A DNA stretch of 56,305 nucleotides from Prevotellaceae bacterium. Its GTDB lineage: Bacteria; Bacteroidota; Bacteroidia; Bacteroidales; Bacteroidaceae. Below, one piece after another: positions 1 through 56,305 of the stretch (its first letter is position 1; each line of letters opens with the position of its first letter). Position numbers and translations under genes: made by a program. Location of the stretch: the NCBI GenBank assembly GCA_003150315.1, contig QAML01000078.1, positions 76,822 through 133,126 of the forward strand, in the 5' to 3' direction. The notes beneath the pieces are model-generated. The model was not told the DNA's origin. It ran no database searches and saw nothing but the letters and a program-made list of their open reading frames with translations.

Positions 1-72
1 AAATACAAGGCACTTATTTTAAAATATGTGCCTTGTATTTTTTACAACAAGCCATGTGTGTTTTTGCACATC
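1..72 (-). repeat. Intergenic 21-bp-unit repeat, copy 1 (cut by window start)
   Basis: First of 13 copies. The palindrome occupies 1-40, with arms AAATACAAGGCACTTATTTT and AAAATATGTGCCTTGTATTT that differ from perfect symmetry at one position. A degenerate outer unit (ACAAGCCATGTGTGTTTTTGCAC) follows to about 72, split here only by the usual spacer. The distal tail that should lie to the left is outside the window. Strand is my orientation call: plus means the ACTTACAAAA tail is at the right. Confidence 0.9.
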
Positions 73-209
73 CGAAATGCGGCTTTCAAAATACGGTTTT
101 CATGATTTTCATAACCTACTCTGATAATGTCGCATGGCTTGAATTTTACAAATTCTTTCATGCGCACTACATATATATGTATGTCCTCCCTGATAACGGG
201 GATTATTTT

Positions 210-218
210 TATCTTTGC
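210..218 (+). promoter_or_regulatory. Bacteroidales -7 promoter element for the TSCPD gene
   Basis: TATCTTTGC fits the Bacteroidota -7 consensus TAnnTTTG and lies 23 bases before the start codon at 242. No clear TTTG -33 element is visible at the usual distance. Confidence 0.7.
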
Positions 219-241
219 ACTAACAAGAAACATCAAAAATC

Positions 242-499
242 ATGCACAAGACATACACAACAACAGGAACATGTTCAAAACAAATTGATTTTGACATAGA
301 CAACGAGGGTAAAATAAGAAACCTGCACTTTCTCGGAGGCTGTTCGGGCAATACGCAGGGCATAGCAAGCCTTTGCGAGGGAATGAATGCCGAAGATGCG
401 GCAAAAAGACTCAAAGGCATTTGCTGCGGAACCAAGGGTACGAGTTGCCCCGACCAGCTTGCCATTGCCTTGGAAGAGGCTTTGAACGAAAAACAATAA
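242..499 (+). CDS. TSCPD domain-containing protein (TIGR03905-like)
   Basis: An 85-residue protein built around one TSCPD domain, the small Cys-rich module also found at the C-terminus of some ribonucleotide reductases. The naming motif TSCPD is at residues 68-72. Candidate metal ligands are Cys11, Cys34 in GGCSGN, Cys61/Cys62 and Cys69. Its length is normal for stand-alone members, whose cellular role is not established; metal binding is an inference from the cysteine pattern. It is a single-gene unit with its own -7 element and a strong terminator, and is convergent with dnaG. Confidence 0.88.
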   Translation: MHKTYTTTGTCSKQIDFDIDNEGKIRNLHFLGGCSGNTQGIASLCEGMNAEDAAKRLKGICCGTKGTSCPDQLAIALEEALNEKQ

Positions 500-517
500 T
501 CCTCCGAAACCGGAAAA

Positions 518-566
518 ACCAAACCGCGCCGCCCAAGTTTGCATTTGGGCGGCGCGGTTTTACTTT
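518..566. terminator. Bidirectional terminator between TSCPD gene and dnaG
   Basis: A 16-bp perfect GC-rich stem pairs 521-536 with 545-560 around an 8-base loop. A T-rich stretch follows on the plus strand and TTTGGTTTTT on the minus strand. It sits between two convergent genes, so it can serve both. Confidence 0.9.
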
Positions 567-583
567 ATTTTGGAAGCAAAACA

Positions 584-2572
584 TCAGGAAAGCATCACAC
601 GTCCTCCCGCCTGCTCAGCCAATACCATTTCTATCCTTTTCATCTCATTATAACGCCCCATAAGTTCCGCCGATTTTTCATCATCATTGGCAACTTCCGG
701 CTTGGCAAGCTCTGCGAGAATACGGTTTGCCTCCTCCTCCACATAAGCCAGCTTGTAATTGTTCAGAGCAAGCAACACCACCTCGCCAATCTTGTCCTCT
801 ATCTTATCAATATTGTTCTGCTCCTTTTTGCTAAGCTGATATTTCTCACTTTCAAGCAAAGCCGCCGTCCTGCTTATGTTCTGGTCGGGATGATAAAGGA
901 AATATTTTCGCGGAGAAAAGTCCGACTCGTGCGAATGAGCCACCGCTTCGTTCATAATCTGCTTGTATTCGGGCGAAGAAAACTCCAGACTGTCGGTGTC
1001 AAGGCTGTATTTCACCATATCTATGACATTCATTCTGCGCACTCCGTCTTCGGTTTCCACATCTCCCACCTCGAGAGTGCCGTAAAGCAAAACGAACTTC
1101 ACAAGAACACTCTCCAATTTGTAAGATTTGCTCGGAGGAGACACAACCGCACTTGCCGTCACGCCATTTGCATTCTCACCGTCGCTTTGCGGCACATCTC
1201 CGCCGTTTGACGGCTCTGCGGCTGCGGCATTCTGCGTTCTCTCCTCCTCGCGTCGGCGTTCCATGATTTTTTCGCGCTTCACTTTCGCCACAGCATCGAG
1301 CAAAAGACTTTCCTCAACGTTCATTGTCTGGCTGCACTCCTTTATATACATGGAACGGAGTATTTTGTCGGGAATCAAAGCAATACTCGTAACCATATTG
1401 TCAATTAAAGAAGCCCGGCTTACAGGGTCGTCTGCACTGTCTTCCATGAAAAGACGGGTCTTAAAACGAATGAAATCGGTTTGGTGGCTATCGATATATT
1501 CTCTGTACTCTTTGGCATTGTGCTTACGGGCAAAACTGTCGGGATCGTCCCCGTCCGGGAGCAACAAAACCTTTACGTTCATTCCTTCAGCCAACAACAT
1601 ATCGATTCCTCGTATAGACGCTTTGATTCCTGCCCTGTCTCCGTCGTACAATACGGTAATATTGTTCGTGAATCTGCGAATCATTCTGATTTGTCCGGGA
1701 GTTAGCGAAGTTCCCGACGAAGCTACGACATTTTTAACGCCGCTTTGGTGCATGGAAATCACATCTGTGTAACCTTCTACAAGGAAACAGCGGTCTTCTT
1801 TCTGTATTTCGCGCTTGGCAACAAAGATTCCGTAAAGTTCGCTACGCTTGTTGTAGATTTCTGATTCGGGAGAATTTACATATTTCGCCGTTTCCTTATC
1901 AGTTTTCAGCACCCTGCCGCCAAAAGCCACCACTCTGCCGCCAACAGTATGGACAGGGAAAATCACACGTCCCGAAAAACGGTCAACAAGTCTGCCGTCG
2001 TCGCGTTTATAACAGAGACCGGTTTTTAGAATAAACTCTTCTTTGAAACCTTTCGCGAGTGCCGCGTCGGCAAGTGAGTTTCGTTCTCTCGGACAATAGC
2101 CGAGTCCGAACTCGTGTATGGTATCATCGCGAAAACCTCTGCTGCGGAAATACTGCATTCCTATTGCCACGCCGTCGGGACTGTTGTGAAGAACATCCTG
2201 AAAGTATTTCGCCGCCCAATCATTGAGAACGAACATACTCTCACGCACATTTTCCGCCTCGCGTTCTTCATCGGTCATTTCCTTTTCCCTTATTTCTATA
2301 TGATATTTGCGAGCCAGCCAGCGGAGTGCCTCGGGATATGTAATTTGTTCGTGTTCCATAAGAAAGTGAACCACATTTCCGCCCTTGCCACAGGAAAAGC
2401 ATTTACAGATTCCCCTGGCGGGAGAAACATAAAAGGAAGGCGTTTTCTCGTCATGGAAAGGGCACAAACCGCGATAGTTCACGCCGGCACGGCGAAGCGT
2501 TACAAATTCCGACACAACGTCCACAATGTTGGACGCATCCATTATCTTTTGTATGGTTTCTCTGTCTATCAT
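584..2572 (-). CDS. dnaG: DNA primase DnaG
   Basis: Synthesises RNA primers at the replication fork. An N-terminal CHC2 zinc finger shows CPFH and CFSC (about residues 37-61), followed by the primase core. The TOPRIM part carries FLVEGYTDV, then SSGTSLT and LYDGDRAG, the acidic residues that bind metal. A low-complexity Gln/Asn/Ala-rich linker precedes the C-terminal helicase-binding region. I start at the Met of MIDRETIQ (2572), the usual primase N-terminus; an in-frame ATG three codons upstream (2581) is possible. It begins just after the GH43 stop (2585), so the two genes are probably cotranscribed. Confidence 0.97.
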   Translation of the reverse strand: MIDRETIQKIMDASNIVDVVSEFVTLRRAGVNYRGLCPFHDEKTPSFYVSPARGICKCFSCGKGGNVVHFLMEHEQITYPEALRWLARKYHIEIREKEMTDEEREAENVRESMFVLNDWAAKYFQDVLHNSPDGVAIGMQYFRSRGFRDDTIHEFGLGYCPRERNSLADAALAKGFKEEFILKTGLCYKRDDGRLVDRFSGRVIFPVHTVGGRVVAFGGRVLKTDKETAKYVNSPESEIYNKRSELYGIFVAKREIQKEDRCFLVEGYTDVISMHQSGVKNVVASSGTSLTPGQIRMIRRFTNNITVLYDGDRAGIKASIRGIDMLLAEGMNVKVLLLPDGDDPDSFARKHNAKEYREYIDSHQTDFIRFKTRLFMEDSADDPVSRASLIDNMVTSIALIPDKILRSMYIKECSQTMNVEESLLLDAVAKVKREKIMERRREEERTQNAAAAEPSNGGDVPQSDGENANGVTASAVVSPPSKSYKLESVLVKFVLLYGTLEVGDVETEDGVRRMNVIDMVKYSLDTDSLEFSSPEYKQIMNEAVAHSHESDFSPRKYFLYHPDQNISRTAALLESEKYQLSKKEQNNIDKIEDKIGEVVLLALNNYKLAYVEEEANRILAELAKPEVANDDEKSAELMGRYNEMKRIEMVLAEQAGGRVMLS

Positions 2573-2584
2573 CGTCCGCAACGC

Positions 2585-3568: not shown

Positions 3569-3584
3569 ATCTTTTTATTTGTTT

Positions 3585-3689: not shown

Positions 3690-3820
3690 TCCGCCTTTGT
3701 AAGTCATTGAAAATCAAAGGTCATTTTTCGCAAAAAATACAAGGCACTTATTTTAAAATAAGTGCCTTGTATTTTAAAATATATGGCTTGTATTTTTTAC
3801 AAGATGCCTTATGTTTTTTC
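3690..3820 (-). repeat. Intergenic 21-bp-unit repeat, copy 2
   Basis: Contains a perfect 40-bp palindrome at 3735-3774, then a third unit (AAAATATATGGCTTGTATTT, 3776-3795) and a degenerate fourth to about 3820. The tail is on the left, as TTTGTAAGTCATTGAAAATC from about 3695. It lies in the divergent gap between GH43 and the flippase and ends about 40 bases before the flippase -7 element. Confidence 0.93.
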
Positions 3821-3867: not shown

Positions 3868-3875
3868 AAGTAAAC

Positions 3876-6370: not shown

Positions 6371-6582
6371 AGCATCTGTCGTTTCGGTTGGACACGAAAC
6401 GGGATTAGCTAATTTACGGGAAGAATGCCTAATAAAACAGATTCCATGCTTTCAAAGGCAGTCCCTCCCGTTTCTGAAAATTCTTTCCTGCGAAACAGGC
6501 AGTAAAAGTCGGGAAGCATTTCAAACGGCAACGCTTTTTGCCACAAAAATGCCGCATGCTTTTTTGTCGCCAAAGGACATCG

Positions 6583-6710
6583 AAAAAAACACAAGGCATG
6601 TTGTAAAAAAATACAAGCCATATATTTTAAAATACAAGGCACTTATTTTAAAATAAGTGCCTTGTATTTTTCGCCGAAATTGATATCTGATTTTCAATAA
6701 CTTACAAAAG
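6583..6710 (+). repeat. Intergenic 21-bp-unit repeat, copy 3
   Basis: The clearest full-length copy: three direct units (starting near 6589, 6611 and 6632) and one inverted unit. The last two form a perfect 40-bp palindrome at 6630-6669. The tail ends CAATAACTTACAAAA near 6708. It lies between the convergent glycosyltransferase and serine palmitoyltransferase genes; apart from the terminator at 6880, nothing else is recognisable in the 6371-6956 gap. Confidence 0.95.
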
Positions 6711-6879
6711 CGAATTTTTCAGGGGTTTCTATACCCCGAAAACAGGAGCGAACAGAATGATTTGCCTGCACAAATTTTCGACAACAATTCAAGGAAACGC
6801 CCCTTTCCGCAATGTTTTCACAAAGCCGGAAACCGTGGGCATCTTTTGGTATCCCGCCGCAATTTTCAAGGATGTGCAC

Positions 6880-6921
6880 AAAAAATACCGCCCTTTCGGA
6901 AAAAAGTCGCGAAAGGACGGT
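6880..6921 (-). terminator. Terminator of the serine palmitoyltransferase gene
   Basis: Arms 6887-6898 and 6910-6921 pair over 12 positions with one mismatch. On the minus strand the hairpin is followed by ATTTTTTG, 35-75 bases past the stop codon. Confidence 0.85.
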
Positions 6922-6956
6922 ACACACAAACCTTTTTATAAGCCGCTATTAACGAC

Positions 6957-8144
6957 TTATTTTATAATCTCAAGCTCTTTGAAAACCTTCAACAGCTTGT
7001 CAACTGCAGTTTTAACCTGTTCTTTTGTATGAGTTGCCATAAGTGCGAAACGAACCAAAGTATCCTGCGGCGCACATGCGGGAGGAATTACGGGATTAAT
7101 GAATACCCCTTCCTCGAAAGCGCGTCTTGTTACGAGGAATGTCTTATCCACATCGCGTACATACAAAGGTATAATAGGCGATTCGGTAGCTCCGATTTCG
7201 AATCCGTTTTCACGGAAAAGTTTCAAGGCATAATTGGTTACATCCCACAGATGTTCTATGCGCTCAGGCTCGTTCTGGATAATGTGCAAAGCCTCCATGG
7301 CGCAAGCAGTTGCCGCCGGAGTGTCGCTGGCACTGAATATATAAGTACGCGCATTATGACGCAGCCAGTTTATGATGTATTTGTCCGAAGCAATGAAGCC
7401 ACCTATCGATGCGAGACTCTTGCTGAAAGTACCCATAATAAGGTCTACCCCGTCGCGAAGTCCGAAATGGTCGCAAACACCACGTCCCTGTTTTCCAAAC
7501 ACACCGAGACCGTGAGCCTCGTCAACCATAACCGTGGCATTATATTTATGTTTCAAACGAATAATCTCGGGAAGGTTTGCAAGATCTCCCTCCATGGAGA
7601 AAACACCATCGACAACAATAAGTTTTACTGCCTCGGGACGACATTTCTTAAGTTGTTTCTCAAGATCTTCCATGTCGTTGTGCTTATACTTAAGGCAAGT
7701 GGAAAACGAAAGTCTGCGTCCGTCCACAATGGAAGCGTGATCGCGGTCGTCGCAAATGACATAGTCATCACGACCAGTGAGACACGAAACAACACCACTG
7801 TTTACGCTGAAGCCGGTTGAGAAACAAAGAGCCTCATCTTTGCCTTCAAATTCGGCAAGTTCCTTTTCGAGTTGCACATGGAGGTCTAAAGTTCCGTTCA
7901 AGAAGCGTGATCCTGCACAGCCGGAGCCATACTTTTCAAGAGCTTTTATGCCCGCCGCAATAACACGCGGGTCGGAAGTGAGACCTGTATAGGCATTGCT
8001 ACCGAACATAAGCACTTTATGTCCGCCCATATTCACTTCTGTATCCTGCTTTCCGTCTATTTCACGGAAATAAGGGTATACGCCTTTTGCCATATACTGC
8101 TGCGGCAGGTCGTATTTCTTTAATCTTTCCTGTAATAATCCCAT
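6957..8144 (-). CDS. spt: Serine palmitoyltransferase / alpha-oxoamine synthase
   Basis: A PLP-dependent enzyme that condenses serine with a fatty acyl-CoA or acyl-ACP to 3-ketosphinganine, the first step of sphingolipid synthesis. It is 395 residues from ATG 8144 (MGLLQERLKKYDLP). Visible active-site elements are His136 (DRDHAS), Asp208 and His211 (VDEAHGLG), and PLP-binding Lys242 (GTFSKSLAS). I reject the longer frame to 8216 because the promoter (-7 at 8187-8195) lies inside it. Other oxoamine synthases such as KBL are close relatives; the Bacteroides SPT-like N-terminus favours SPT. A lipid kinase is encoded divergently. Confidence 0.9.
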   Translation of the reverse strand: MGLLQERLKKYDLPQQYMAKGVYPYFREIDGKQDTEVNMGGHKVLMFGSNAYTGLTSDPRVIAAGIKALEKYGSGCAGSRFLNGTLDLHVQLEKELAEFEGKDEALCFSTGFSVNSGVVSCLTGRDDYVICDDRDHASIVDGRRLSFSTCLKYKHNDMEDLEKQLKKCRPEAVKLIVVDGVFSMEGDLANLPEIIRLKHKYNATVMVDEAHGLGVFGKQGRGVCDHFGLRDGVDLIMGTFSKSLASIGGFIASDKYIINWLRHNARTYIFSASDTPAATACAMEALHIIQNEPERIEHLWDVTNYALKLFRENGFEIGATESPIIPLYVRDVDKTFLVTRRAFEEGVFINPVIPPACAPQDTLVRFALMATHTKEQVKTAVDKLLKVFKELEIIK

Positions 8145-8186
8145 TATTTCTATACAAGATTGTCGAGAGACAAATTCTAAAACTGT

Positions 8187-8217
8187 GCAAAGGTAGTTAT
8201 TTTTGTTAAAACGCAAA
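8187..8217 (-). promoter_or_regulatory. Promoter of the serine palmitoyltransferase gene
   Basis: On the minus strand TTTG (8217-8214), an 18-base spacer, then TACCTTTGC (8195-8187). This two-box match gives a leader of roughly 35 bases and sets the ATG at 8144. Confidence 0.8.
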
Positions 8218-9430: not shown

Positions 9431-9558
9431 TGAAAAAACATAGGGCATATTGTAAAAAATACAAGCCATATATTTTAAAATACAAGGCACATATTTTGAA
9501 ATAAGTGCCTTGTATTTTTCACGTTTTCAGACCCACTGATAAACAATAACTTACAAAA
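9431..9558 (+). repeat. Intergenic 21-bp-unit repeat, copy 4
   Basis: Units start near 9437, 9459 and 9480, with an inverted unit to 9517. The 40-bp palindrome (9478-9517) has a few mismatches. The tail contains TTTTCAGACCCACTGA and ends AACTTACAAAA at about 9557. It lies between the lipid kinase and rlmN; the rest of the 9322-9800 gap holds only the rlmN promoter. Confidence 0.93.
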
Positions 9559-11015: not shown

Positions 11016-12122
11016 ATGGACAATAAAAAGATACGTGTAGCCATAACCCATGGCGATACAAACGGCGTGGGATACGAAATAATTTTCAAAGTATTTGCCG
11101 ACAGCGCAATGCTTGACCTCTGCACCCCAATCATATATGGTTCGCCCCGTGTGGCTATATTCCACCGCAAGGCGTTGAATCTGCCCACAAACTTCAATAC
11201 CGTTCAATCCGCCAACGAGGCTGTGGACGGAAAAGTGAACCTTGTTTCATGTTTTGACGAAGAAGTGAAAGTGGACATGGGACAACCCACCGCCGAAAGC
11301 GGACGCGCAGCCTATCTTGCGCTTGAACGCGCCATGGAAGACTATGAAAAAGGCTACTATGACGTACTCGTAACCGCGCCAATCTGTAAATCGGCAATCC
11401 AAGGCGAGGATTTTCATTTTCCCGGACACACTGAATTTTTGCAGCAACGCCTTTCCGCCAACGGCGAAAAGGCTCTGATGATACTGATGAACGACAAAAT
11501 GCGCGTGGCATTGGTTACAACTCATCTTCCGATAAGCCAGGTGGCAAACGCAATAACAGAAGAAGCCGTGGAAAACAAACTGCGTCTTCTCCACACCTCA
11601 TTGCGCAGGGATTTTCTGATTTCCGAACCGCGTATTGCGGTACTTTCACTCAATCCTCATGCAGGCGACAACGGGCTGATTGGAAACGAAGAAGCGGAAA
11701 GCATAGTTCCCGCCATACAGAAGCTGAACGAGGAAGGTATTAACTGCTTCGGTCCCTATCCTGCCGATGGCTTTTTCGGCGATGCCGCATACAGAAAATT
11801 CGATGCCGTTCTTGCTATGTATCACGACCAGGGACTTGCACCGATGAAGGCACTCGGAATGGCTGACGGTGTGAATTTTACCGCAGGATTGAAGTTAGTA
11901 CGCACTTCTCCCGACCATGGCACAGCTTACGACATAGCAGGAAAAGGAATTGCCGACGAAAATTCCATGCGACAAGCCATATACAAGGCAATAGATATAT
12001 TCCGCAACAGAAATTTCGACGATGAAGCAAAAGTAAACCCGCTTCGCGAAGAATATCAAAACCGTCGGGAAGAAAACTTTCGCCCGAGAAACAACGCGGA
12101 AGAGCATAATCGCAAAGAGTAA
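11016..12122 (+). CDS. pdxA: 4-hydroxythreonine-4-phosphate dehydrogenase PdxA
   Basis: An NAD-dependent enzyme of the DXP-dependent pyridoxal 5'-phosphate pathway. THGDTNGVGYE is at the N-terminus. The three metal-binding histidines are visible in FPGHTEFL, LNPHAGDNG and MYHDQGLAPMK. Its 368 residues include a non-conserved charged C-terminal tail after the usual end near YKAIDIFRNR. The next gene starts four bases after the stop, so pdxA probably heads the following lipid- or glycan-headgroup operon, although its reaction has no obvious link to it. A weak -7-like TAAATTTA lies at 10934. Confidence 0.95.
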   Translation: MDNKKIRVAITHGDTNGVGYEIIFKVFADSAMLDLCTPIIYGSPRVAIFHRKALNLPTNFNTVQSANEAVDGKVNLVSCFDEEVKVDMGQPTAESGRAAYLALERAMEDYEKGYYDVLVTAPICKSAIQGEDFHFPGHTEFLQQRLSANGEKALMILMNDKMRVALVTTHLPISQVANAITEEAVENKLRLLHTSLRRDFLISEPRIAVLSLNPHAGDNGLIGNEEAESIVPAIQKLNEEGINCFGPYPADGFFGDAAYRKFDAVLAMYHDQGLAPMKALGMADGVNFTAGLKLVRTSPDHGTAYDIAGKGIADENSMRQAIYKAIDIFRNRNFDDEAKVNPLREEYQNRREENFRPRNNAEEHNRKE

Positions 12123-16835: not shown

Positions 16836-16960
16836 GAAAAAAACATAAGGCACCTTGTAAAAAATACAAGCCATATATTTTAAAATACAAGGCACTTATT
16901 TTAAAATATATGCCTTGTATTTTTGTCCTCACAAATATTTAATGTACAGCAACATACAAG
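16836..16960 (+). repeat. Intergenic 21-bp-unit repeat, copy 5
   Basis: Three direct units and an inverted unit, with palindrome 16883-16922 (AAG in one arm is ATA in the other). The tail is diverged (CAACATACAAGA near 16950). It lies in the convergent gap 16471-17112. The remaining 365 bases before it hold only a weak TTTCCGA/TCGGAAA inverted pair near 16490. Confidence 0.9.
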
Positions 16961-22377: not shown

Positions 22378-22384
22378 CTTCATC

Positions 22385-22585
22385 ATGGACCATCTGCCAA
22401 AGGACCCTGCAATTTTGGTTTCAAGTGTAAACATGCTTCTGCGCGATAACGAATATGATTCTTTCGAAGAACTTTGCCACTGCTTCAATCGCAATCCAGA
22501 CGAGTTGAAAGCTTTTTTGAAAGAGAACGGATATGTATATAGCGAGGAACAGAAACAAATACGCCCTTGCGGCTTTGACGAATAA
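22385..22585 (+). CDS. DUF4250 domain-containing small protein
   Basis: 66 residues matching DUF4250: MDHLPKDPAILVSSVNMLLRD, then a helical HCFNRNPDELKAFLKENGY and YSEEQKQI. The family is short, cytosolic and of unknown function. It starts seven bases after dedA. Confidence 0.8.
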   Translation: MDHLPKDPAILVSSVNMLLRDNEYDSFEELCHCFNRNPDELKAFLKENGYVYSEEQKQIRPCGFDE

Positions 22586-22593
22586 GGAAAAGC

Positions 22594-22839
22594 ATGATTA
22601 GCCGGGACGCAATAGAAACTGCCTACAGTTTCTTTCACCAAAAACAGAGAATATACGCCCATTCCACGATTGCAAGCCAGAAAGACGACATTGAGTACGC
22701 CATTTCTTCATACGTAGAGGGCATGAGTCCTGAGTTGTACCTCAAGATTTCGGAGGGGAAGGACGGTTTTCTGCTCAGACACGATTCTTTCGGCTGCGAC
22801 ATTGCCAATGCGGTGGAAAGACTCGAAAAAATGCTTTGA
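22594..22839 (+). CDS. Small conserved-looking hypothetical protein
   Basis: 81 residues, acidic, mostly helical, with no signal or membrane segment. It contains the aromatic stretch AYSFFHQKQRIYAHST and a C-terminal DIANAVERLEKML helix. I do not recognise a named family. Tight spacing (eight bases after DUF4250, four before the acyltransferase) and good codon use support a real gene. Confidence 0.75.
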   Translation: MISRDAIETAYSFFHQKQRIYAHSTIASQKDDIEYAISSYVEGMSPELYLKISEGKDGFLLRHDSFGCDIANAVERLEKML

Positions 22840-23822: not shown

Positions 23823-23950
23823 AAAAAAAACTACATGCCTTGTTGTAAAAAACACAAGGCACTTATTTCAAAATACAAGGCACATATTTTAAAATATATG
23901 CCTTGTATTTTTCGTCTTTTCAAACATCTGAAACGCAACAACTTACAAAA
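23823..23950 (+). repeat. Intergenic 21-bp-unit repeat, copy 6
   Basis: Starts only about 16 bases after the acyltransferase stop, with no other terminator in between. It has three direct units, and palindrome 23871-23910 has small mismatches. The tail includes TTTTCAAACATCTGAAA and ends CAACAACTTACAAAA at about 23950. The remainder of the 23807-24281 gap holds only the galM promoter. Confidence 0.95.
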
Positions 23951-30368: not shown

Positions 30369-30510
30369 TTACAAGACTTCCATAAGTTGTTGTACATCAG
30401 ATTCTTATGATTGCAAAAAATACAAGGCACTTATTTCAAAATATAAGGCACATATTTTAAAATACATGGCTTGTATTTTTTACGACAAGCCATGTGTTTT
30501 TTCGCACATC
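30369..30510 (-). repeat. Intergenic 21-bp-unit repeat, copy 7
   Basis: Units at 30418-30437 and 30438-30458, with the inverted-type unit AAAATACATGGCTTGTATTT at 30459-30478, then a degenerate outer unit to 30510. The tail lies on the left and includes AAGTTGTTG near 30384. It sits in the divergent gap between the TPR gene and tsaB. The rest of 30164-30687 holds two promoter elements and nothing else recognised. Confidence 0.92.
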
Positions 30511-36403: not shown

Positions 36404-36494
36404 TTCCCACTTTCAATCCTCTGATAATCGCATCATTTTTTTGAACACGCAGAGACGAATTTTCTATTCAAATTGCGGTTTTCATAAGCCTTTA

Positions 36495-36612
36495 TTTTTC
36501 AGTTACTTACTTCGTCCGAAAAATCACACGGCTTTTTTTCGAAAATATATGGCTTGTATTTTAAAACAAGTGCCTTGTATTTTGAAATATATGCCTTATG
36601 TTTTTTACGAAA
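36495..36612 (-). repeat. Intergenic 21-bp-unit repeat, copy 8 (lacks the palindrome)
   Basis: A divergent copy. Three units all point the same way (AAAATATATGGCTTGTATTT at 36542, AAAACAAGTGCCTTGTATTT at 36563, then GAAATATATGCCTTATGTTT), and the opposite-facing unit that makes the palindrome is missing. A tail trace, CAGTTACTTAC, is near 36500. It shows that the palindrome is not always kept. The rest of the 36337-36857 gap holds the rseP terminator and serC promoter. Confidence 0.85.
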
Positions 36613-42708: not shown

Positions 42709-42748
42709 AAACGCAAATGCAGGGTGTTTTCAAACACATGGGAAATAA

Positions 42749-42855
42749 GAAAAAACATAAGGCATATATTTTAAAATACAAGGCACTTATTTTAAAATAA
42801 GTGCCTTGTATTTTTCGCCATTTCAAGCATCTGAAAAACAACAACTTGCAAAGAG
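42749..42855 (+). repeat. Intergenic 21-bp-unit repeat, copy 9
   Basis: A shorter array: two direct units and the inverted unit, with a perfect 40-bp palindrome at 42774-42813. The tail includes ATTTCAAGCATCTGAAAAA and ends CAACAACTTGCAAA at about 42852. It lies about 40 bases after a separate terminator. The rest of 42650-43116 holds only the transketolase promoter. Confidence 0.95.
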
Positions 42856-45633: not shown

Positions 45634-45690
45634 AAAAAAGCGGATGCAAACACCGGTTTGTATCCGCTTTTTGTTTCTTTGTTTTTTTAG
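45634..45690 (+). terminator. Terminator after rpiB
   Basis: A-rich arm with GCGGAT at 45640-45645 pairs with ATCCGC at 45662-45667. The stem extends through the A and T tracts, with CAAAC/GTTTG also paired in the upper stem, and is followed by repeated T runs. Confidence 0.88.
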
Positions 45691-45752: not shown

Positions 45753-45880
45753 TTTTTGTAAGTTACTGTATCACAGACATTTGTAATGTCCAAAAATATA
45801 AGGCATATATTTTGAAATACAAGGCACTTATTTTAAAATAAGTGCCTTGTATTTTTTGCGATAAGCCTTATGTTTTTTCC
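45753..45880 (-). repeat. Intergenic 21-bp-unit repeat, copy 10
   Basis: Perfect 40-bp palindrome at 45815-45854, an extra unit on the left (AATATAAGGCATATATTTTG) and a degenerate outer unit on the right. The tail on the left reads TTTTTGTAAGTTACTG at 45754. It lies after the rpiB terminator and before the phoH promoter; nothing else is seen in 45621-46060. Confidence 0.95.
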
Positions 45881-47089: not shown

Positions 47090-48034
47090 ATGAACAAAGC
47101 ATTAATCAAAACAGACTATCATTTTCCCGGACAGGTTAGCGTGTACAACGGAAAGGTTCGCGATGTTTACAACATCAACAACGAGAAACTCGTAATGGTT
47201 GCCACCGACAGAATCTCGGCTTTCGACGTGATTCTTCCCAAAGGAATCCCTTTCAAAGGGCAGGTGCTCAACACCATTGCCTCACGCGAACTTGACGCAA
47301 CCAAAGATATTTGTCCCAACTGGAAACTTGCCACTCCCGATCCCATGGTTACTGTGGGCTACATGTGTAAAGGTTATCCCGTGGAGATGATTGTGAGAGG
47401 TTATCTTTGCGGCAGCGCGTGGAGAGCCTATAAAGCCGGCGCACGCGAGCTGTGTGGCGTGAAACTTCCCGAAGGCATGCGCGAAAACCAGAAGTTCCCC
47501 ACGCCCATCATCACTCCTACCACAAAAGCAGAGATAGGCGACCATGACGAAAACATATCACGCGAAGAAATTCTTGCAAAAGGTCTCGTGCCCGAGAAAG
47601 AATATGAAATCATGGAGAAATATACTCTTGCACTTTTCGAACGCGGCACAGAAATAGCGGCAAAACGTGGTTTGATTCTCGTGGATACGAAGTACGAATT
47701 CGGACTTCACAACGGCGAAGTTACGCTTATGGACGAAATTCACACTCCTGATTCGTCGCGCTACTTCTATTCGGAAGGCTATGAGGAGAAATTCGAGAAA
47801 GGCGAGCCGCAGAAGCAACTTTCCAAGGAATTTGTGCGCGAATGGCTGCTGAGCAATAATTTCCAAGGTCAGGAAGGGCAGAAACTTCCCGAGATGACCG
47901 ACGAAATTGTTGAGAATATTTCGAACCGCTATATTGAACTGTACGAAAACATAACGGGTGAAAAATTCAACAAAGAGGCTCACGAAGACCCCGCAAAGCG
48001 CATAGAGAAAAACGTGCTCGAATATTTGGGATAA
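47090..48034 (+). CDS. purC: Phosphoribosylaminoimidazole-succinocarboxamide synthase (SAICAR synthetase)
   Basis: Step 8 of de novo purine synthesis, joining aspartate to CAIR with ATP. Key motifs are GKVRDVYNI near the N-terminus, [13 protein letters not shown], and [23 protein letters not shown] and [11 protein letters not shown] carry the catalytic acidic residues. 314 residues, the longer form usual in Bacteroidota. Shares a transcript with phoH without obvious functional link. Confidence 0.96.
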
Positions 48035-48059: not shown

Positions 48060-48093
48060 AGCCTCGCCCTGCAAAAGGGTGAGGCTCTTTTTA
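48060..48093 (+). terminator. Terminator after purC
   Basis: AGCCTCGCCCT (48060-48070) pairs with AGGGTGAGGCT (48076-48086) with one mismatch, then CTTTTTAT. Confidence 0.9.
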
Positions 48094-48195: not shown

Positions 48196-48323
48196 GAAAA
48201 AACACATGGCTTGTTGTAAAAAATACAAGGCACTTATTTTAAAATATGTGCCTTATATTTCAAAATATATGCCTTATATTTTTCGCTTTTTCAGACACCT
48301 GAAACACAACAACTTACAAAAGC
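48196..48323 (+). repeat. Intergenic 21-bp-unit repeat, copy 11
   Basis: The first palindrome-forming unit starts at 48221, and the right arm to 48260 has two changes. Another unit of the same sense follows (AAAATATATGCCTTATATTT). The tail contains the small hairpin TTTCAG-ACAC-CTGAAA and ends CAACAACTTACAAAA at about 48321. It lies well after the purC terminator; the rest of 48035-48524 holds only the next promoter. Confidence 0.94.
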
Positions 48324-49701: not shown

Positions 49702-50346
49702 ATGAGCATTCCCCAAAAACGAAGACTGATTGCGGTATTCCTGACATTCCTGATAGTTTTACTACCGGCGCACACAAGAGCCAACAACCCTGTCAACGCC
49801 AAAACGGCAAGACAGTTGTTCAACACGGCATACAAGTCCGTTTACGGCGCACAAGGTTCCACGCTTAGCTACGCCGTTAATCTGGTGGGGCTTTACAAGA
49901 CAACCGGCACCATAAGCATGAAAGGCAAAAAGAAACGCTTTTTCGAACCGCGATACAGCGCATGGTGCAACGGCAAAGACTATTACAAGGTGGACAACAA
50001 AAGGAAAGAAATAGAAATTCATAGTGCCACATCGCCCAAGAAAGATAAGTATTCCGAAAAATTCTCCTTCTCTCCTAACAATTTCAACTACAGTTACTCC
50101 GAAAACCGCAACGAATACATAATAACACTTGATGCCAAACCCAAGACATCGGGAAACATAAAGCACGCACAGATTTACCTGGACAAAACAACCAAAGCTC
50201 CCAAAAGTTTGAAGATAAAAGTACTGTTTTTTTGGACAACAATAAAGATTTCGAACTTTCACAGCGGAGGCATAAACGACGAAATTTTCAACTTTCCCAA
50301 AGGGAAATTCAAGGATTACAAAATCACAGACAAAAGACCCGATTAA
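49702..50346 (+). CDS. LolA-like periplasmic carrier protein
   Basis: 214 residues with a signal peptide (hydrophobic LIAVFLTFLIVLLPAHTRAN). The mature part is a half-barrel-like series of beta strands: TLSYAVNLVGLYKTTGTISMKG, RYSAWCNGKDYYKVDNKRKEIEI and APKSLKIKVLFFWTTIKISNF. This is the pattern of Bacteroidota LolA-like outer-membrane lipoprotein carrier proteins. It is 25 bases after the BspA-like gene, so probably cotranscribed. Whether it serves general lipoprotein transport or only its neighbour is unknown. Confidence 0.75.
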   Translation: MSIPQKRRLIAVFLTFLIVLLPAHTRANNPVNAKTARQLFNTAYKSVYGAQGSTLSYAVNLVGLYKTTGTISMKGKKKRFFEPRYSAWCNGKDYYKVDNKRKEIEIHSATSPKKDKYSEKFSFSPNNFNYSYSENRNEYIITLDAKPKTSGNIKHAQIYLDKTTKAPKSLKIKVLFFWTTIKISNFHSGGINDEIFNFPKGKFKDYKITDKRPD

Positions 50347-50358
50347 GGGTCTTTTTTA
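50332..50358 (+). terminator. Terminator overlapping the LolA-like stop codon
   Basis: AAAAGACCC (50332-50340) pairs with GGGTCTTTT (50347-50355), followed by more T. The stop codon is in the loop. Confidence 0.9.
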
Positions 50359-50410
50359 TGCACCTCTGCGAACGTTTCCAAGCGTTTGAGCACAACCCAA
50401 AGTCATATAC

Positions 50411-50760
50411 TTTTGCACACTCCGCGCCCTTTTTTCAGGGCAACAGGCATGCGAATTATCTCGTGCCCAACTTTACACACTTACACTTACACAGACATCC
50501 GCAAAAAATAACACTTCGCTTTTGACAGGACTACAGGCACAGCAGAATCCTTGCGGCGCACTCTTCGTGCTTATCCCTGCATCCGCAGTAGAACACATGA
50601 CACTTTTTATAGGGTAACAGACACACGAAACACCACACTACACATACTCCGCCCTTTCACAAACATTCGTAGAGAAATACTCAATACTTTTGGCATAACA
50701 AACGGCACCAAACCTTCCAAATGGCACAGTCCACACACTTTCGCGTACATCCGCAGAAAA
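50411..50760. repeat. Decayed 84-bp tandem repeat
   Basis: The phrase ACATCCGCA or a close variant recurs with near-exact 84-base spacing: 50495, 50579 (CATCCGCA at 50580), 50663 (ACATTCGTA) and 50747. A second landmark, like CAGGGCAACAGG, recurs at about 50436, 50526 and 50610 and, degraded, at 50691. Between landmarks the units have diverged strongly. No reading frame spans them. Confidence 0.6.
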
Positions 50761-51875
50761 TAATGCCGTGAACGCGCTCCAATACGGCAACTATTCCTTC
50801 TCGCATGCGGACACCGCAAAAAACACAAGCCATATATTTCAAAACATAAGGCATGTATTTTAAAATAAGTGCCTTATATTTTCAAACAAAAGCCTTTTAT
50901 TTTTCGATAAAAAAGAAAGTCTGAAAATCAGTTCCTTACAAAGGACAAAAGTTTCGTCATATCGTTCAAACACCACCGCTTCTTTTTTCTGTCGATTCTG
51001 CTTTTTACGTCATTTTTTACTGTCATATACGATACTTTCCTATAGCAACCGCCGTCAAAACGCATTACGCTTTCAAAACATCAGGAGAAATATCAATAAA
51101 ACACTTTATCCACGCTGTTATTTCCGAAAATACCGCCTTGATTTTCTCATTTTCCCGAGCCGGCACATATGCAAAAGTAATTACCTGACCCATGCCAACT
51201 ACCTTTGAGCATTAAACAACTGTACATTACTGGAATCACACCTATTTTTTCGCAAAAAAACGCACGAAAAACAGCCTTTGCCTCAAAATAACCAAGATAA
51301 AAATCTTGAGAAAACTCATTATTCACATCTTTTCAAGCGTTTTCCACCTCAATCTTCATTTTCATACGGGACTATTACACATGTACAAACAATCACAAAC
51401 ATGAAAACAATTACCCAAACGCATAACATAACCCAAATTCAAGGATACAAAATGACAACACGCAACTTAGCAGTTGCTGCAAGTCTATATCCGAAAATGT
51501 GAAAGCATCAAACAAGGAAACCACCGTAAAAGACGAATTTCAGACAGGCAACGAAGCAAGATCTTTAGCAGTTTTAGGCGTTATTTGCGGCTTCAGAAAC
51601 AAACATTGCGTCGTTTTGCCGTCATATTATGCCTCTTGTTTTTAATGCAAAACAAATGAAATTCGCTTCTATTTGAGAGATAGAAAAGGAAGTTATTTAT
51701 ACTCCTTTTTTATTTACTATAATGAATTTTGTTCTACTAATACAGGAATATTATAACGCAAAAACTACTGTCCGTAAACGTCATGTCCGCAAGATAAAAC
51801 GTTCAAAGGTTTAATAATACAGACAATGAGACAGCGAAGTGAAATTGCTTCCTTCTGTCATTTTGTCATGTATGT
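50761..51875. other. Gene-poor stretch before the XRE regulator
   Basis: About 1.1 kb with repeat copy 12 at its left. It holds short open frames around 51278-51659 that break into one another and match nothing I know. A-rich, T-rich and low-complexity sequence dominates (repeated ACAAAC and AACATAACCC words near 51380-51450). I see no tRNA, no convincing gene and no mobile-element gene. Confidence 0.5.
50817..50946 (+). repeat. Intergenic 21-bp-unit repeat, copy 12
   Basis: Four units: CACAAGCCATATATTTC, CATAAGGCATGTATTTT, then two inverted-type units (ATAAGTGCCTTATATTTT and AAAAGCCTTTTATTTTTCG). The palindrome at about 50842-50880 is imperfect. The tail has TCTGAAAATCAG and ends TCCTTACAAAG at about 50944. 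It follows the 84-bp repeat. Confidence 0.9.
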
Positions 51876-52385
51876 TTAGCGTGAAACATTGTGCTTCTCG
51901 GACGGCACAAAACTTTCAAATGTTTGGTCGTCATAAAAAACACGTATCTCTACAACTTTCGGACGTACGATTTTTGTTTCGGTTATAACCTTAGTGGCAA
52001 CTTGTTTTTCCTGATTTGAATTTCCGACAACGGGATTGGAAATTCCGTCAAACAATCCGAATCCTCCAATTTCGTTTTTAGAACTTCCGTTATTGCCCCC
52101 CGGCAAATTTGAATTTGAGTTCAGACTTCCGGAAGCGGAGTCGGGCATAGCGGAATCGGAACTTTTTTTTGCGTCATCGTTCAACATCGTTCCTTCACCA
52201 AACATCAACCAATTTGTGTTGATATTCGGAAACGCGCGATGAATTGCCTGAACATGATTGTTGGTCGGATTCGACCGTCCATTGAAAATATTGGAAAGTG
52301 AAGCAGGAGACATTCCGAGTTTCTGCGCAAATTCTTGTTGCGACAAACCCATGGAATCCATAACTTGTCTGATACGTTCTCTCAT
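51876..52385 (-). CDS. XRE-family transcriptional regulator
   Basis: 169 residues. The N-terminal helix-turn-helix (about 5-63: IRQVMDSMGLSQQEFAQKLG, then MSPASLSNIFNGRSNPTNN) is the Cro/C1 type that binds DNA as a dimer. A Ser/Asn/Gly-rich linker follows (about 73-110). The C-terminal piece KVVEIRVFYDDQTFESF may be a strand-rich contact region. It stands alone in an AT-rich 3.2-kb zone with no other gene, so its targets are not evident; autoregulation is plausible. Confidence 0.9.
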   Translation of the reverse strand: MRERIRQVMDSMGLSQQEFAQKLGMSPASLSNIFNGRSNPTNNHVQAIHRAFPNINTNWLMFGEGTMLNDDAKKSSDSAMPDSASGSLNSNSNLPGGNNGSSKNEIGGFGLFDGISNPVVGNSNQEKQVATKVITETKIVRPKVVEIRVFYDDQTFESFVPSEKHNVSR

Positions 52386-52412
52386 TTTTTACTACTTTTC
52401 CTGAGATTTAGT

Positions 52413-52421
52413 GCAAATTTA
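52413..52421 (-). promoter_or_regulatory. -7 promoter element for the XRE gene
   Basis: TAAATTTGC on the minus strand, 28 bases before the ATG. Confidence 0.7.
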
Positions 52422-53497
52422 CGGAAAAGTCGTATTATTTACAAGTATAAACACAGAAAACTAATAACAAAAACATAAATCCTCAAAACACAAACCCAAA
52501 GATTTATATTTTACACCTTGCGTAACAATCGTAAAAGTAATAGTTTTGATTTTACAACTATACAATTTACGACCATAACACTTACAAACTAAAACTACTA
52601 TATAACAAGCATTTAACAAACAGACGTATTCTTTTGAGTCTTATTTTATTGTTATTAGCTGTCAATTCCATTTTCTATTACTACAAAGACATTATGAACC
52701 AAAACAGACCTGTTTTTCGTAGAAAAGCTTGTACAAATCCACATAAAACATTGGTTTTTCGTTATATATATTCTTTCTTTTTATTTGAATTCGTTTTATA
52801 TTTATATTTTACAGTTTCAAAAATCCCGTCTCCTTTATCTTTTGCAATTCGATTTAATATTTTACAATCATGTATCCCGTTAAAGCTTTTATGCTTTATT
52901 CTTTTATATTCGTATTTAGATGCATTCTTGTGATACAAAACCATAAATCTTAAAAAATACTACCACTAAATTTTTGATTTGACATTGTGGTAAATTTAAG
53001 GAATTTCGGCTCAGATAAAACAAGTGTTCGAAATGCCAAAAGCCACGCAATTCTACAGCGGTCAAATTCTGTCTAAACGCCCTAAGATAGAGGGAAAAAC
53101 ACATCAAATTCTTGTTTGATATTTCGAGTAAAATAGAAAATCACAAGCTTAAAAAGCCGTTTTTTAAGCCTTCCCAACCATATTTTGGGGCATTTCCAAG
53201 CGATTTTTCCTCACGATCTTTCTCTTACAAGCCATAATTTCACTCTCGTTTACCAACTTTTTCTACTCAAAAGCTACAGTATCCTGGTGCCAACCCTAAG
53301 AATTCTACCATTAAACCAATATCAAAAAAGAAATTGGCATGTCGTAAGAAAACATCGCACAAGCAATAAAACAAAATTAGAATGAACGACTAACCCACCC
53401 GGAGAAATAAGAAAACAAACAAGAATGGGCAACAAAGCAAACAGAAACGATTATAAAAGCAAACCGGAACAAGCGAAAAATCATCCCATACCGGGAA
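52422..53497. other. AT-rich gene-free stretch between XRE gene and holA
   Basis: About 1.1 kb, the only long gap in the window without a copy of the 21-bp-unit repeat. It contains a GCTTAAAAA/TTTTTTAAGC hairpin (53147-53169) and a CCCT-AAGATA-GAGGG pair near 53081. From about 53330 the plus strand becomes A- and purine-rich up to the 53498 inverted repeat. Short frames at 52634-52933 look like low-complexity chance. An untranslated RNA is possible but I cannot identify one. Confidence 0.45.
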
Positions 53498-53550
53498 CGA
53501 GAATCAATAAAAAAGCACGCGGAATCCGCGTGCTTTTTTATTGATTCTCG
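53498..53550. terminator. Perfect 25-bp-arm inverted repeat, bidirectional terminator
   Basis: Arms 53498-53522 and 53526-53550 are exact reverse complements around AAT. The GC-rich inner stem (GCACGCGG/CCGCGTGC) is flanked by A6 and T6 on the two sides, so it can terminate in both directions. It lies 48 bases past the holA stop. No gene on the left strand is known to use it. Confidence 0.88.
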
Positions 53551-53597
53551 TCTAATTTTCGCCTTGCTTCTGTTTGTTTCTTTGCAAAGAGATTTCC

Positions 53598-54626
53598 TTA
53601 ATGAAGTATGAAATATATTAGATCCATTCCGAGTTCTGCTTCCGAAGCAGCATCGAAACCTATCCCCTTTTGATGCTCGTCAGTCTCCCTAATCTTGCCT
53701 ATAATTTCCATTACTTTCCTTGCCGAATAGTTTCCAAGTGCAGGAATAATATTTTTCTTTACCTGCCATTCTGTCATGCCCGTCCATTTTGCAATTCCCA
53801 TAGGGCTTTTATCAGGAGAATAGTATGAAATCATAAGTTTGGAGAAAAAGCGGAACAGTTGCACCAAATTTCTTTGCAACGGATTGGCTTTTGAATTAGC
53901 TCCAAAATATTGTACTATTTGAAAAGCCTTAAAAACGTCTCTTCTAACTATCGCATCCTGGAGTTCGAAATAATTAAAATCTTTGCTTATTCCGATATTC
54001 TTCTCCACTATTTCGGGAGTAACATTGTTTTGTCCCTGCGGCATAGAAATCACAAGCTTGTCAAGCTCGCCATTCATACGATTCAAATCCGCGCCTATGT
54101 TTCCGGCAATCATTTCCGTGGCTTTCGGTGTTATCGAAAGTCCGTGCTGTTTCATATAAACGCTTATGAATCCCGAAAGCTGATTGTCGTAAAGTTTTTT
54201 TGCTTCAAACAAAACACCATTCTTCTGCGCGAGTGTGGCAAGACGCTTTCTTTTATCCACGGTTCCGTTCTTGTAACAAATAACAAGTATAGTGCTCTCG
54301 AGCGGTCGCTGCAGATAATAAGCCAAATCTTCCAAACGTTCCATTAGTTGCGCCTCGCGCACTTCAATCAAAAGGTGCTCCGTGCCAAGCGGACTGCTTT
54401 TCGCTGTGTTCACAATTTCTCCCACATCGGCATCCGAGCCGTAATAGGTAAAATAGTTAAACGCCTTGTCCTCTTCGGGCATAACTCTTTTCGATAGGGC
54501 TTCGGCTATTTTATCTATGAAATAACTCTCCTCTCCTTCGAGAAGATATACCTTTTCGAACTTTCCGGCATTTATATCGCGCATTATTCCTTCATACGAA
54601 GGTCCCGTTTGTTTTGTGTAAGCCAC
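53598..54626 (-). CDS. holA: DNA polymerase III subunit delta
   Basis: The clamp-loader subunit that opens the beta sliding clamp. It has an N-terminal inactive AAA+-like domain with KVYLLEGEESYFIDKI and LLIEVREAQ, a middle part with TEMIAGNIGADLNRMNGELDKL, and a C-terminal collar region with QRNLVQLFRFFSKL. 342 residues, typical. About 50 bases separate it from the upstream AMP nucleosidase gene on the same strand. Confidence 0.93.
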   Translation of the reverse strand: MAYTKQTGPSYEGIMRDINAGKFEKVYLLEGEESYFIDKIAEALSKRVMPEEDKAFNYFTYYGSDADVGEIVNTAKSSPLGTEHLLIEVREAQLMERLEDLAYYLQRPLESTILVICYKNGTVDKRKRLATLAQKNGVLFEAKKLYDNQLSGFISVYMKQHGLSITPKATEMIAGNIGADLNRMNGELDKLVISMPQGQNNVTPEIVEKNIGISKDFNYFELQDAIVRRDVFKAFQIVQYFGANSKANPLQRNLVQLFRFFSKLMISYYSPDKSPMGIAKWTGMTEWQVKKNIIPALGNYSARKVMEIIGKIRETDEHQKGIGFDAASEAELGMDLIYFILH

Positions 54627-54676
54627 GTTGTATTCGTAAAAATCCGCCCGTCCCGTTTCTTTTCGGTCTGCGGCAT

Positions 54677-55453
54677 TTAATAATCATATTTCAGATGACG
54701 CACCGTGCGCCCGTCATTCTTTATAAGTTTGAGTGCAGCAATTCCGAAAGCCACATGTTCCGGCGCAAAGTCCTTAGTAACCTTTTCATCGCTCTCCATT
54801 GTTTTCACGCCTTCGGGAATCATAGGATTATCACTCACGAGCAGCAAAGCCCCTGTGGGAATATGGTTATAGAATCCGCAACTGAAAAGCGTGGCAGTCT
54901 CCATATCCACAGCCATGGCGCGGGTTTTCAACAAATAATCCTTGAACTTTCCGTCATGTTCCCACACACGCCTGTTCGTAGTATATACAGTGCCCGTCCA
55001 ATAATCGTGGTTGGCATCGCGCAAAGAAGTGGAAACCGCCCTTTGAAGCATAAAAGCAGGAAGAGCCGGGATTTCCGGCGGGAAATAATCGTTGCTTGTA
55101 CCCTCACCTCTTATTCCTGCAAGCGGAAGAATGTAACTCCCTAATCTTGCTTTGTCGGAAATTCCGCCGCATTTGCCCAAAAACAAACAAGCAGCCGGTT
55201 TCACGGCACTCAGCAGGTCCATGACGAGAGCGGCATTGGGACTTCCCATTCCGAAATTCACAATGGTTATCCCGTCAGCCACAGCTGTGCGCATATTTGC
55301 ACCATAGCCCACGGCTTCCACCCCACACTGTTCACAAAACAAGTCAACATAATTGTTGAAATTCGTCAACAGTACATAAGGAGTGAAATCTTCGAGAGGT
55401 CTGTGAGTATATCTCACAAGCCAATTGCCCACTATTTCCTCGCGAGTTTTCAT
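54677..55453 (-). CDS. amn: AMP nucleosidase (short Bacteroidota form)
   Basis: Hydrolyses AMP to adenine and ribose 5-phosphate; a nucleoside-phosphorylase fold. NFGMGSPNAALVMDLL gives the phosphate region. MAVDMETATLFS carries the ribose-contacting Glu, and LVSDNPMIPEG has the purine-contacting Asp. 258 residues from ATG 55453 (MKTREEIVGNW); eight further codons to 55477 are possible but less like the family. It lacks the N-terminal regulatory domain of the longer E. coli enzyme. Confidence 0.85.
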   Translation of the reverse strand: MKTREEIVGNWLVRYTHRPLEDFTPYVLLTNFNNYVDLFCEQCGVEAVGYGANMRTAVADGITIVNFGMGSPNAALVMDLLSAVKPAACLFLGKCGGISDKARLGSYILPLAGIRGEGTSNDYFPPEIPALPAFMLQRAVSTSLRDANHDYWTGTVYTTNRRVWEHDGKFKDYLLKTRAMAVDMETATLFSCGFYNHIPTGALLLVSDNPMIPEGVKTMESDEKVTKDFAPEHVAFGIAALKLIKNDGRTVRHLKYDY

Positions 55454-55478
55454 TATAATTCCTAAATTTGCACTCATC

Positions 55479-55511
55479 GGCGCAATGCGCCAAAGAATAA
55501 TTGCAAAAATA
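55479..55511 (-). promoter_or_regulatory. Promoter and small palindrome upstream of amn
   Basis: TATTTTTGC on the minus strand (55511-55503) is a -7 box. Downstream of it, GGCGCA-A-TGCGCC (55479-55491) is a perfect 6-bp-arm palindrome in the expected leader, a possible operator or leader hairpin. Confidence 0.5.
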
Positions 55512-55515
55512 GCAA

Positions 55516-55971
55516 ATGTTTGCGTTAAACCTGCCAGTTGCCGACATAAAAATAAGCCAAAGCCAAGGCAAGCCCACTGTTTACGACTTCCTTCGCCGCC
55601 GTTACGTAGCTCTCACCCCCGAAGAATGGGTGCGCCAACAGTTCACCCGTTTCCTCACCGACCACAAGGGCTACCCCGCAGCCCTAATGGGAAACGAAAT
55701 GGAGCTTACCGCCAACGGCAAAAAGCGACGTTGCGACAGCGTGGTCTTCAACGCCAAGGGCGCCCCCCTCTTAATCATAGAATACAAAGCTCCCTCCATA
55801 AGCATAACCCAAAAAGTTTTCGAGCAACTAAGCTCCTACAACATCATACTCCACACAAAATATCTCATAGCCACAAACGGCATGAACCATTACTGTTGTC
55901 GTGTGGACTACGAAGCAAAGTCTTTTAGTTTTTTGCGGGATATTCCTAATTATCAAGAGCTTGAACAATAA
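55516..55971 (+). CDS. Stand-alone type I restriction HsdR N-terminal-domain protein
   Basis: 151 residues corresponding to the HSDR_N endonuclease domain alone (PF13588-like), without the helicase or any HsdM/HsdS partner nearby. PD-(D/E)XK residues are visible: Glu61 or Glu63 in GNEMELT, Asp74 in RRCDSVVF, and Glu89 with Lys91 in LIIEYKAP. Bacteroidota often keep such a solo gene beside holA and amn, which suggests a housekeeping DNA or RNA role rather than phage restriction. Its activity is unknown. Confidence 0.8.
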   Translation: MFALNLPVADIKISQSQGKPTVYDFLRRRYVALTPEEWVRQQFTRFLTDHKGYPAALMGNEMELTANGKKRRCDSVVFNAKGAPLLIIEYKAPSISITQKVFEQLSSYNIILHTKYLIATNGMNHYCCRVDYEAKSFSFLRDIPNYQELEQ

Positions 55972-56242
55972 ACGCAAACCACACCCGTAAAGAAATACAC
56001 AAACATAATTCACACATTATTAGACATTCCCGTTCTCTTTTCCTCACGCTTCAGCATTATATATCCGACAATTTCTCCCCTGTTTATCATTCAAAACCGC
56101 ACACCTCAAACCGTCGAAACCTTCCCTCTTCTGCCCCGGATTTTTCTAAATACATGCAAACAGGCATGAGATTTGAGCGGTAAATTTCTTGTTTTTGGAA
56201 ACAGGGAACGTGTTCTTTTTTCATGCGGATTAGCACACAGGA

Positions 56243-56305
56243 AAAAACACATGGCTTATCGCAAAAAATACAAGGCACTTATTTTAAAATAAGTGCCTTG
56301 TATTT
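56243..56305 (+). repeat. Intergenic 21-bp-unit repeat, copy 13 (cut by window end)
   Basis: A degenerate outer unit (AAAACACATGGCTTATCGC) and then a perfect 40-bp palindrome that ends exactly at the last base (56266-56305). The tail is outside the window. The 55972-56242 sequence before it holds nothing recognised. Confidence 0.93.

Follow-up and report, generated by a model that had tools for sequence, protein, structure and literature searches.

Architecture and placement of the element

The stretch analysed here (the window) comprises 56,305 bp of contig QAML01000078.1 from a Prevotellaceae bacterium, with a GC content of 0.449, and almost all of its long intergenic gaps carry one copy each of a short repeated element that is the subject of this report. 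All in-window results rest on this one stretch. Its Bacteroidales lineage is reflected in the AMP nucleosidase gene: among the best 120 of 8000 matches, some relatives are 84-86% identical, and those labelled Bacteroidaceae, Bacteroidales or Alloprevotella are 78-79% identical. The element is about 125 bp long, non-coding, and has a GC content of 0.256-0.295 as compared to 0.449 for the window. Its array consists of four near-palindromic units of 21 bp without gaps between them (a leader unit followed by U2-U4), the unit consensus being AAAATA-NNN-GSC-NNN-TATTTT, and 3' of the array a T-run leads into a tail ending in CTGA-N4-CAAYAACTTACAAA. The window holds 11 full copies and two that are cut by its edges (c1 and c56243). 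Eight lie in orientation A (6583, 9431, 16836, 23823, 42749, 48196, 50817 and 56243) and five in orientation B (1, 3690, 30369, 36495 and 45753):

c1: 1..62, minus strand, edge-cut, with leader unit, U2 and U3
c3690: 3696..3818, minus strand, divergent gap
c6583: 6585..6708, plus strand, convergent gap
c9431: 9434..9557, plus strand, co-directional gap
c16836: 16839..16959, plus strand, convergent gap
c23823: 23827..23949, plus strand, co-directional gap
c30369: 30380..30501, minus strand, divergent gap
c36495: 36482..36605, minus strand, co-directional gap, most divergent of all copies, with a degenerate last unit
c42749: 42732..42852, plus strand, co-directional gap, first unit degenerate
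c45753: 45755..45877, minus strand, co-directional gap
c48196: 48198..48320, plus strand, co-directional gap
c50817: 50819..50942, plus strand, convergent gap, last unit degenerate
c56243: 56243..56305, plus strand, edge-cut, with leader unit, U2 and U3

A profile was built from the 11 full copies, and each of these was tested by leave-one-out search. All were recovered with E-values between 3.4e-30 and 2.9e-17, c36495 being the weakest, and both edge-cut copies were recovered by the 11-copy profile. Outside the elements the best profile score in the window had E = 1.3, and neither a truncated nor a decayed copy was detected there; the best score in 20 simulated windows, searched jointly with the element profile, was E = 2.3. 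The unit pattern with at most two mismatches occurred at 36 sites within elements and at none outside (simulated-window mean 0.6), and with three mismatches at three sites outside elements, which is lower than the simulated mean of 5.5. The initial annotation had proposed a conserved family of 13 copies; each of its positions is real, and the conservation is borne out by the leave-one-out values and by the confinement of the unit pattern.

The regularity of the array is its most prominent property. The distance between neighbouring units was 21 bp in 23 of 24 cases, and since the array spans eight helical turns, equivalent bases face the same side. The unit frame is nearly fixed, with positions 2, 4, 6, 10, 12 and 16 each carrying 2.0 bits over 37 units, and the inner bases vary (0.59 and 0.47 bits at positions 7 and 15). 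The leader unit is more degenerate (AAAACAYAWGGC...TTGTAA). U2-U4 have a polarity, given by AGSCA or its complement TGSCT, that is present in 35 of 37 units: U2 displayed one polarity in 13 of 13 copies, U4 the opposite one in 9 of 11, and U3 occurred either way.

Array and tail are held at a constant distance. Among the nine copies analysed for tail distance and identity (c1, c56243, c36495 and c50817 were excluded), the distance was 28 nt in seven, and 27 and 29 nt in the other two. Pairwise identity was 0.39 in the spacer, 0.72 in the tail motif and 0.35 in the DNA beyond the element; composition alone predicts 0.27. A constant distance across a nearly unconserved spacer points to a requirement for the spacing itself. 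The tail motif with at most three mismatches matched 11 sites in the window, nine of them in element tails, against a mean of 0.21 in shuffled sequence. One example reads:

6687..6708, plus strand, tail motif CTGA-N4-CAAYRACTTACAAA in c6583

The arrays also have the capacity to fold. All 22 folds (both strands of the full copies) were more stable than shuffled sequences, with z-scores from -1.9 to -12.7, and they are so in both directions because the units are inverted. A hairpin of -12.5 kcal/mol or lower directly precedes TTTT in at least one direction in 10 of the 11 full copies (6/11 in direction A and 10/11 in direction B, most of the latter inside the array). In the transcript of an incoming plus-strand gene, a strong hairpin before a T-run was present in six of nine interior copies and weak or absent in c48196 (-3.3), c36495 (-6.0) and c50817 (none). 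The window had no Rfam match at the gathering threshold, and U3-U4 covariation within it did not exceed position-specific expectation (P = 0.37).

Genes were called from open reading frames (ORFs) together with Pfam and NCBIfam matches. The 81-amino-acid ORF at 22594-22839 was counted as a gene despite the lack of a match to either; if it is not one, 22378-22801 becomes a second long gap without a copy. Of the 12 interior gaps longer than 300 bp, 11 contain exactly one copy and one (52386-53597) contains none, and none of the 13 copies lies inside a window gene. The proposed rule of one copy per long gap, with this one exception and none in genes, is confirmed for the genes as called. The presence of 11 copies in 11 different gaps is rarer than predicted under uniform intergenic insertion (P = 0.008). 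The sole long gap without an element is AT-rich (GC 0.316), gene-poor, and adjoins an HTH_3 regulator gene at 51876-52385.

Two of the 11 occupied interior gaps are divergent, three convergent and six co-directional; gap 6371-6956 counts as convergent since the aminotransferase gene at 6957-8216 lies on the minus strand. Four copies in co-directional plus-strand gaps point with the genes and two against them, which gives no firm orientation rule. At least one gene 3' end is faced by 11 of the 13 copies, and the upstream gene end lies 19-471 bp from the element. We take the Bacteroidota-type -7 box to have the consensus TAnnTTTG. By matching to this consensus alone, a -7-like box was found between element and gene in four of the eight element gaps that contain a gene start: at c3690 and c30369 on both sides, and at c9431 and c42749. 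In the divergent gaps the element accordingly lies between two outward-facing boxes. At three copies a separate terminator-like hairpin lies between the gene end and the element:

521..560, no strand assigned, GC-rich, immediately after the 3' end of the dnaG-like gene and between that gene and c1
45635..45672, plus strand, after the 3' end of the rpiB-like gene and before c45753
48060..48086, plus strand, after the 3' end of gene 47090-48034 and before c48196

Wherever promoter-like and terminator-like sites are recognisable, the element lies outside both. A promoter function for the element itself was considered and rejected. Several arrays contain sigma-70-like matches, by consensus only; two -7-like matches to TAnnTTTG fall inside elements (c16836 and c45753), and inspection of the tail by eye showed no conserved promoter.

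Occurrence in other contigs

The element's translations in two frames were searched against a metagenome protein set; with an E-value limit of 10, one frame matched 944 protein clusters and the other 760. We examined the best 120 of each, all of which had E-values below about 1e-12. These matches reproduce the whole build of leader unit, further units and tail, on contigs of up to 735,761 bp. In one frame, 54 of 74 distinct tails shared a single exact offset and a further four deviated from it by one base; in the other, 70 of 94 distinct flanks had the tail at a single exact offset. These counts exclude 6 short flanks and 14 tails whose motif could not be recognised, several of the latter representing one locus. 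By eye, copies sharing their flanks with c3690, c16836, c23823, c30369 and c48196 were recognised in other contigs. A dispersed, structured and strictly intergenic family, as originally claimed, is supported by the profile, unit-pattern and gap evidence in the window, and the family extends to other metagenome contigs.

Arrays could be parsed in 107 of 120 listed proteins in the first frame and in 97 of 120 in the second. Distinct arrays were set by their flank letters, and strains of one locus may consequently count repeatedly. Exactly four units were present in 65 of 72 distinct parsed arrays in the first frame, where the parser is blind to arrays of fewer than four units, and in 73 of 79 in the second. 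Unit number nevertheless changes at single loci: contigs with both flanks in common carried 4, 5 or 6 units, the counterpart of c3690 had 3 versus 4, that of c23823 had 4 versus 5, and 7 versus 4 units were seen where only one flank was shared. Slippage occurs, yet four units are kept. The inverted arrangement of units was present in 72 of 72 distinct parsed arrays of the first frame. In the metagenome set the central bases of U3 and U4 were complementary in 49 and 5 cases and not in 2 (Fisher 5e-6, uncorrected for relatedness); in the second frame V1-V2 covariation was weak (P = 0.03) and V3-V4 covariation, for the other end of the array, absent (P = 1.0).

A coding function, which was also considered, is rejected since frame and strand of the open reading differ from case to case and some copies have in-frame stops. 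Many predicted hypothetical proteins (among P0121-P0360) are instead translations of the non-coding element, and one of them, P0142, is a named match from a Prevotellaceae metagenome-assembled genome whose record stands in NCBI and nr. The element thereby accounts for a group of spurious hypothetical proteins in public data, which are an annotation artefact.

In several of these matches, for example P0126, P0129, P0157, P0177 and P0221, different right flanks follow a single left flank on the far side of the array; the left flank MRMIPLVFPFVKGHE, for instance, occurs with six clearly different tails. As four of the five minor forms lie on contigs of 4.2 kb or shorter, assembly chimeras are a simpler reading than recombination between copies. 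The element may give rise to misassemblies in short-read metagenomes.

Other collections gave little. The exact 21-mer had one match in a genome contig collection (Eubacteriales, L001), a single unit inside an ORF that we take as chance. In viral contigs the unit patterns gave one or two single-unit matches, which apart from the contig described below were likewise taken as chance, or none; 136 unit-pattern stretches there yielded no confirmed element, and 60 loci with the tail pattern gave a best element-profile match of E = 0.1. Searches of plasmids and phages by BLAST returned partial matches only, at E = 0.03 or worse. The contig set apart (L007, IMG/VR 3300032038_000602, GC 0.616) is classed as viral and carries, at 11067-11128, three 21-bp-phased intergenic units of the form AAATAAGTGSCAC(TTATTT). 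This array has a symmetric version of the unit, is without tail, and lies near a -7-like box, TAACTTTGC; its neighbouring proteins matched nothing in Pfam and, where they matched PHROGs, only families of unknown function. It could be a related binding-site array.

Comparison with known repeat families

The element is a composite interspersed repeat outside all named families tested, BOX and TnpAREP repeats having been compared by description alone. No description of it was found in the literature searched, where its sequence words occurred once each in three unrelated papers.

Bacterial interspersed mosaic elements (BIMEs) of enterobacteria, composed of repetitive extragenic palindromes (REPs), resemble the element in being composite and intergenic, with palindromic units of about 20-40 bp in opposite orientations, many copies and variation in unit number (PMC3733652); palindromic units in opposite orientations between genes are indeed what we observe. 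A tagged REP is not supported, as no consistent tag was found in the 11 full copies: GTAG occurred in 0 of 11, CTAC in 1, CGTC in 2 and GACG in 2, at differing places. The element also differs from tagged REPs in its units, contiguous at exactly 21 bp, and in its separate tail at a fixed distance. Moreover, it occupies divergent gaps too and lies 19-471 bp from the upstream gene end, whereas REPs are mostly within 20 bp of it (PMC3733652).

BOX elements of Streptococcus pneumoniae share the order of leader, tandem repeated module and tail, the intergenic location, the variation in the repeated module between strains and potential stem-loops (PMC3049150). In contrast, BOX has terminal inverted repeats and target duplications, and its number of boxB modules varies widely (PMC3049150); in our element neither of the former is clear and four units are the rule, a comparison that concerns architecture alone. 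The BrickBuilt miniature inverted-repeat transposable elements (MITEs) of Porphyromonas gingivalis are likewise intergenic in Bacteroidales and consist of leader, spacerless tandem repeat and tail (PMC4596501). Their repeats are 23 nt long, number 1 to 22.8 and are bounded by IS5-like terminal repeats (PMC4596501), as opposed to four units of 21 bp here. The BrickBuilt end GAGACCTTTGCA had six matches in the window against 5.1 expected, which is the chance level. Finally, Bacteroidetes TnpAREP subclass 2.6 resembles the element, by description alone, in that atypical structured repeats are copied around Bacteroidetes genomes (PMC6006769).

Competing explanations and the favoured reading

We tentatively favour a composite, dispersed intergenic Bacteroidales repeat of the BIME/BOX class that is selected as a two-part DNA site. 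Its sequence, phase, spacing, location and occurrence in other contigs are observed directly, and it is spacing, phase, intactness and the location of one copy per gap that favour this reading. Four contiguous near-palindromic units would constitute the first part and the directional tail motif, kept about 28 nt away, the second, in a position between transcription units and clear of recognisable promoter-like and terminator-like sites. The element is probably protein-bound, and a DNA-binding protein would occupy the phased units. Once bound, the element would form a boundary between neighbouring operons, either topological or nucleoid-organising, as has been proposed for BIMEs. Among the functions listed in the initial annotation, a protein-binding array appears to be the best fit to the 21-bp phase and the fixed tail spacing over a variable spacer.

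This reading should be treated with some caution. No binding protein is known for the element, and none was sought. A mobilising enzyme's demand could explain the fixed spacing equally well. The asymmetric units keep an inverted hairpin arrangement that a simple protein-binding array does not need. Imperfect copies exist, the last unit being degenerate in c36495 and c50817 and the first in c42749, and the one-per-gap statistic weakens to P = 0.04 when the two gaps above 1 kb are dropped. The genome analysis covered 56 kb of one genome.

Inverted polarity and hairpins would also be needed by a mobilising enzyme or a terminator, and for this reason both of these explanations stay under consideration. 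It is possible, though we have our doubts, that the element is a selfish non-autonomous mobile repeat, either a MITE whose ends are not recognised or an atypical REP/REPIN that relies on a TnpAREP-type enzyme (e.g. Bacteroidetes subclass 2.6) for its movement. The enzyme would then recognise the array hairpins and the tail, and long gaps would simply be places where insertion is tolerated. A short AT-rich, non-coding sequence, dispersed in both orientations among unrelated flanks, resembles a MITE in these respects. The conserved inversion of the units (all 72 parsed metagenome arrays, and U4 in nine of 11 full window copies) and the U3/U4 central pairing kept through changes in the metagenome set are consistent with mobility, and Bacteroidetes TnpAREP genes are reported to be flanked by atypical structures that are copied elsewhere in the genome (PMC6006769). 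The plain MITE of the initial annotation is nevertheless not supported by the ends: no inverted match of at least 7 nt joins the outer 48-nt ends of the 11 full copies, whose left boundary is not sharply defined, and no consistent target duplication was found, although candidate words of 6-7 nt, different each time, are shared by the flanks of eight of the 11. The inconsistency of the GTAG and CGTC tags speaks against mobility as well, as do the even distribution of one copy per gap and the absence of fragments or decayed copies in the window, which is unusual for an old family with spacers at 39% identity. Among the genes of the window that were scanned, none stood out as a transposase gene.

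The second alternative, a bidirectional intrinsic terminator between transcription units in which an inverted unit pair forms the hairpin ahead of the T-runs, we regard as unlikely. In its favour are the negative z-scores of all 22 folds, the hairpin before TTTT in 10 of 11 full copies in some direction, and the 11 of 13 copies that face a gene 3' end. Against it, a strong hairpin in the direction of the incoming plus-strand transcript is present in six of nine interior copies but lacking in c48196, c50817 and c36495, two of the 11 interior copies lie between divergent promoters, and three gene ends already possess a strong terminator-like hairpin of their own ahead of the element (521-560, 45635-45672 and 48060-48086). 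For these reasons the RNA 3'-end element of the initial annotation, too, fits in part only. A terminator would furthermore have no need of a tail motif 28 nt further on. A neutral minisatellite lying in the gaps by chance is already disfavoured and strikes us as most improbable. Single loci do differ in their number of units (4, 5 and 6; 3 versus 4; 4 versus 5), but four units predominate in both frames, with the reservation made above for the first parser, and slippage does not produce a common tail at a fixed distance or the same architecture at unrelated sites.

Returning to the two-part selected site, its furthest extension is a Bacteroidales lineage in which nearly all operon boundaries of the chromosome carry such an array, phased, occupied by protein and with its tail at the fixed distance, under selection and with an insulating or nucleoid-organising role. 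We consider this rather unlikely. If it is true, one copy per 4.3 kb would extrapolate to several hundred copies per genome. A functional constraint would make the element a dense and regular operon-boundary marker in abundant gut bacteria whose chromosome organisation has been little studied, and the fixed 21-bp phase and tail spacing make a boundary role directly testable. If the element is selfish, it would represent a high-copy family of unusual anatomy with no visible ends.

Two minor features of the window stand apart from the repeat family. The gene at 55516-55971 encodes a 151-amino-acid protein that matches only a type I restriction R-subunit N-terminal domain (HSDR_N_2, E = 8e-40), and no other restriction gene was seen beside it in the window. 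At 50090-50763, a 29-nt repeat (ACACTTACACAGACATCCGCAAAAAATAA-like) is present in three copies, spaced by 393 and 252, at the 3' end of a LolA-like gene and beyond it.

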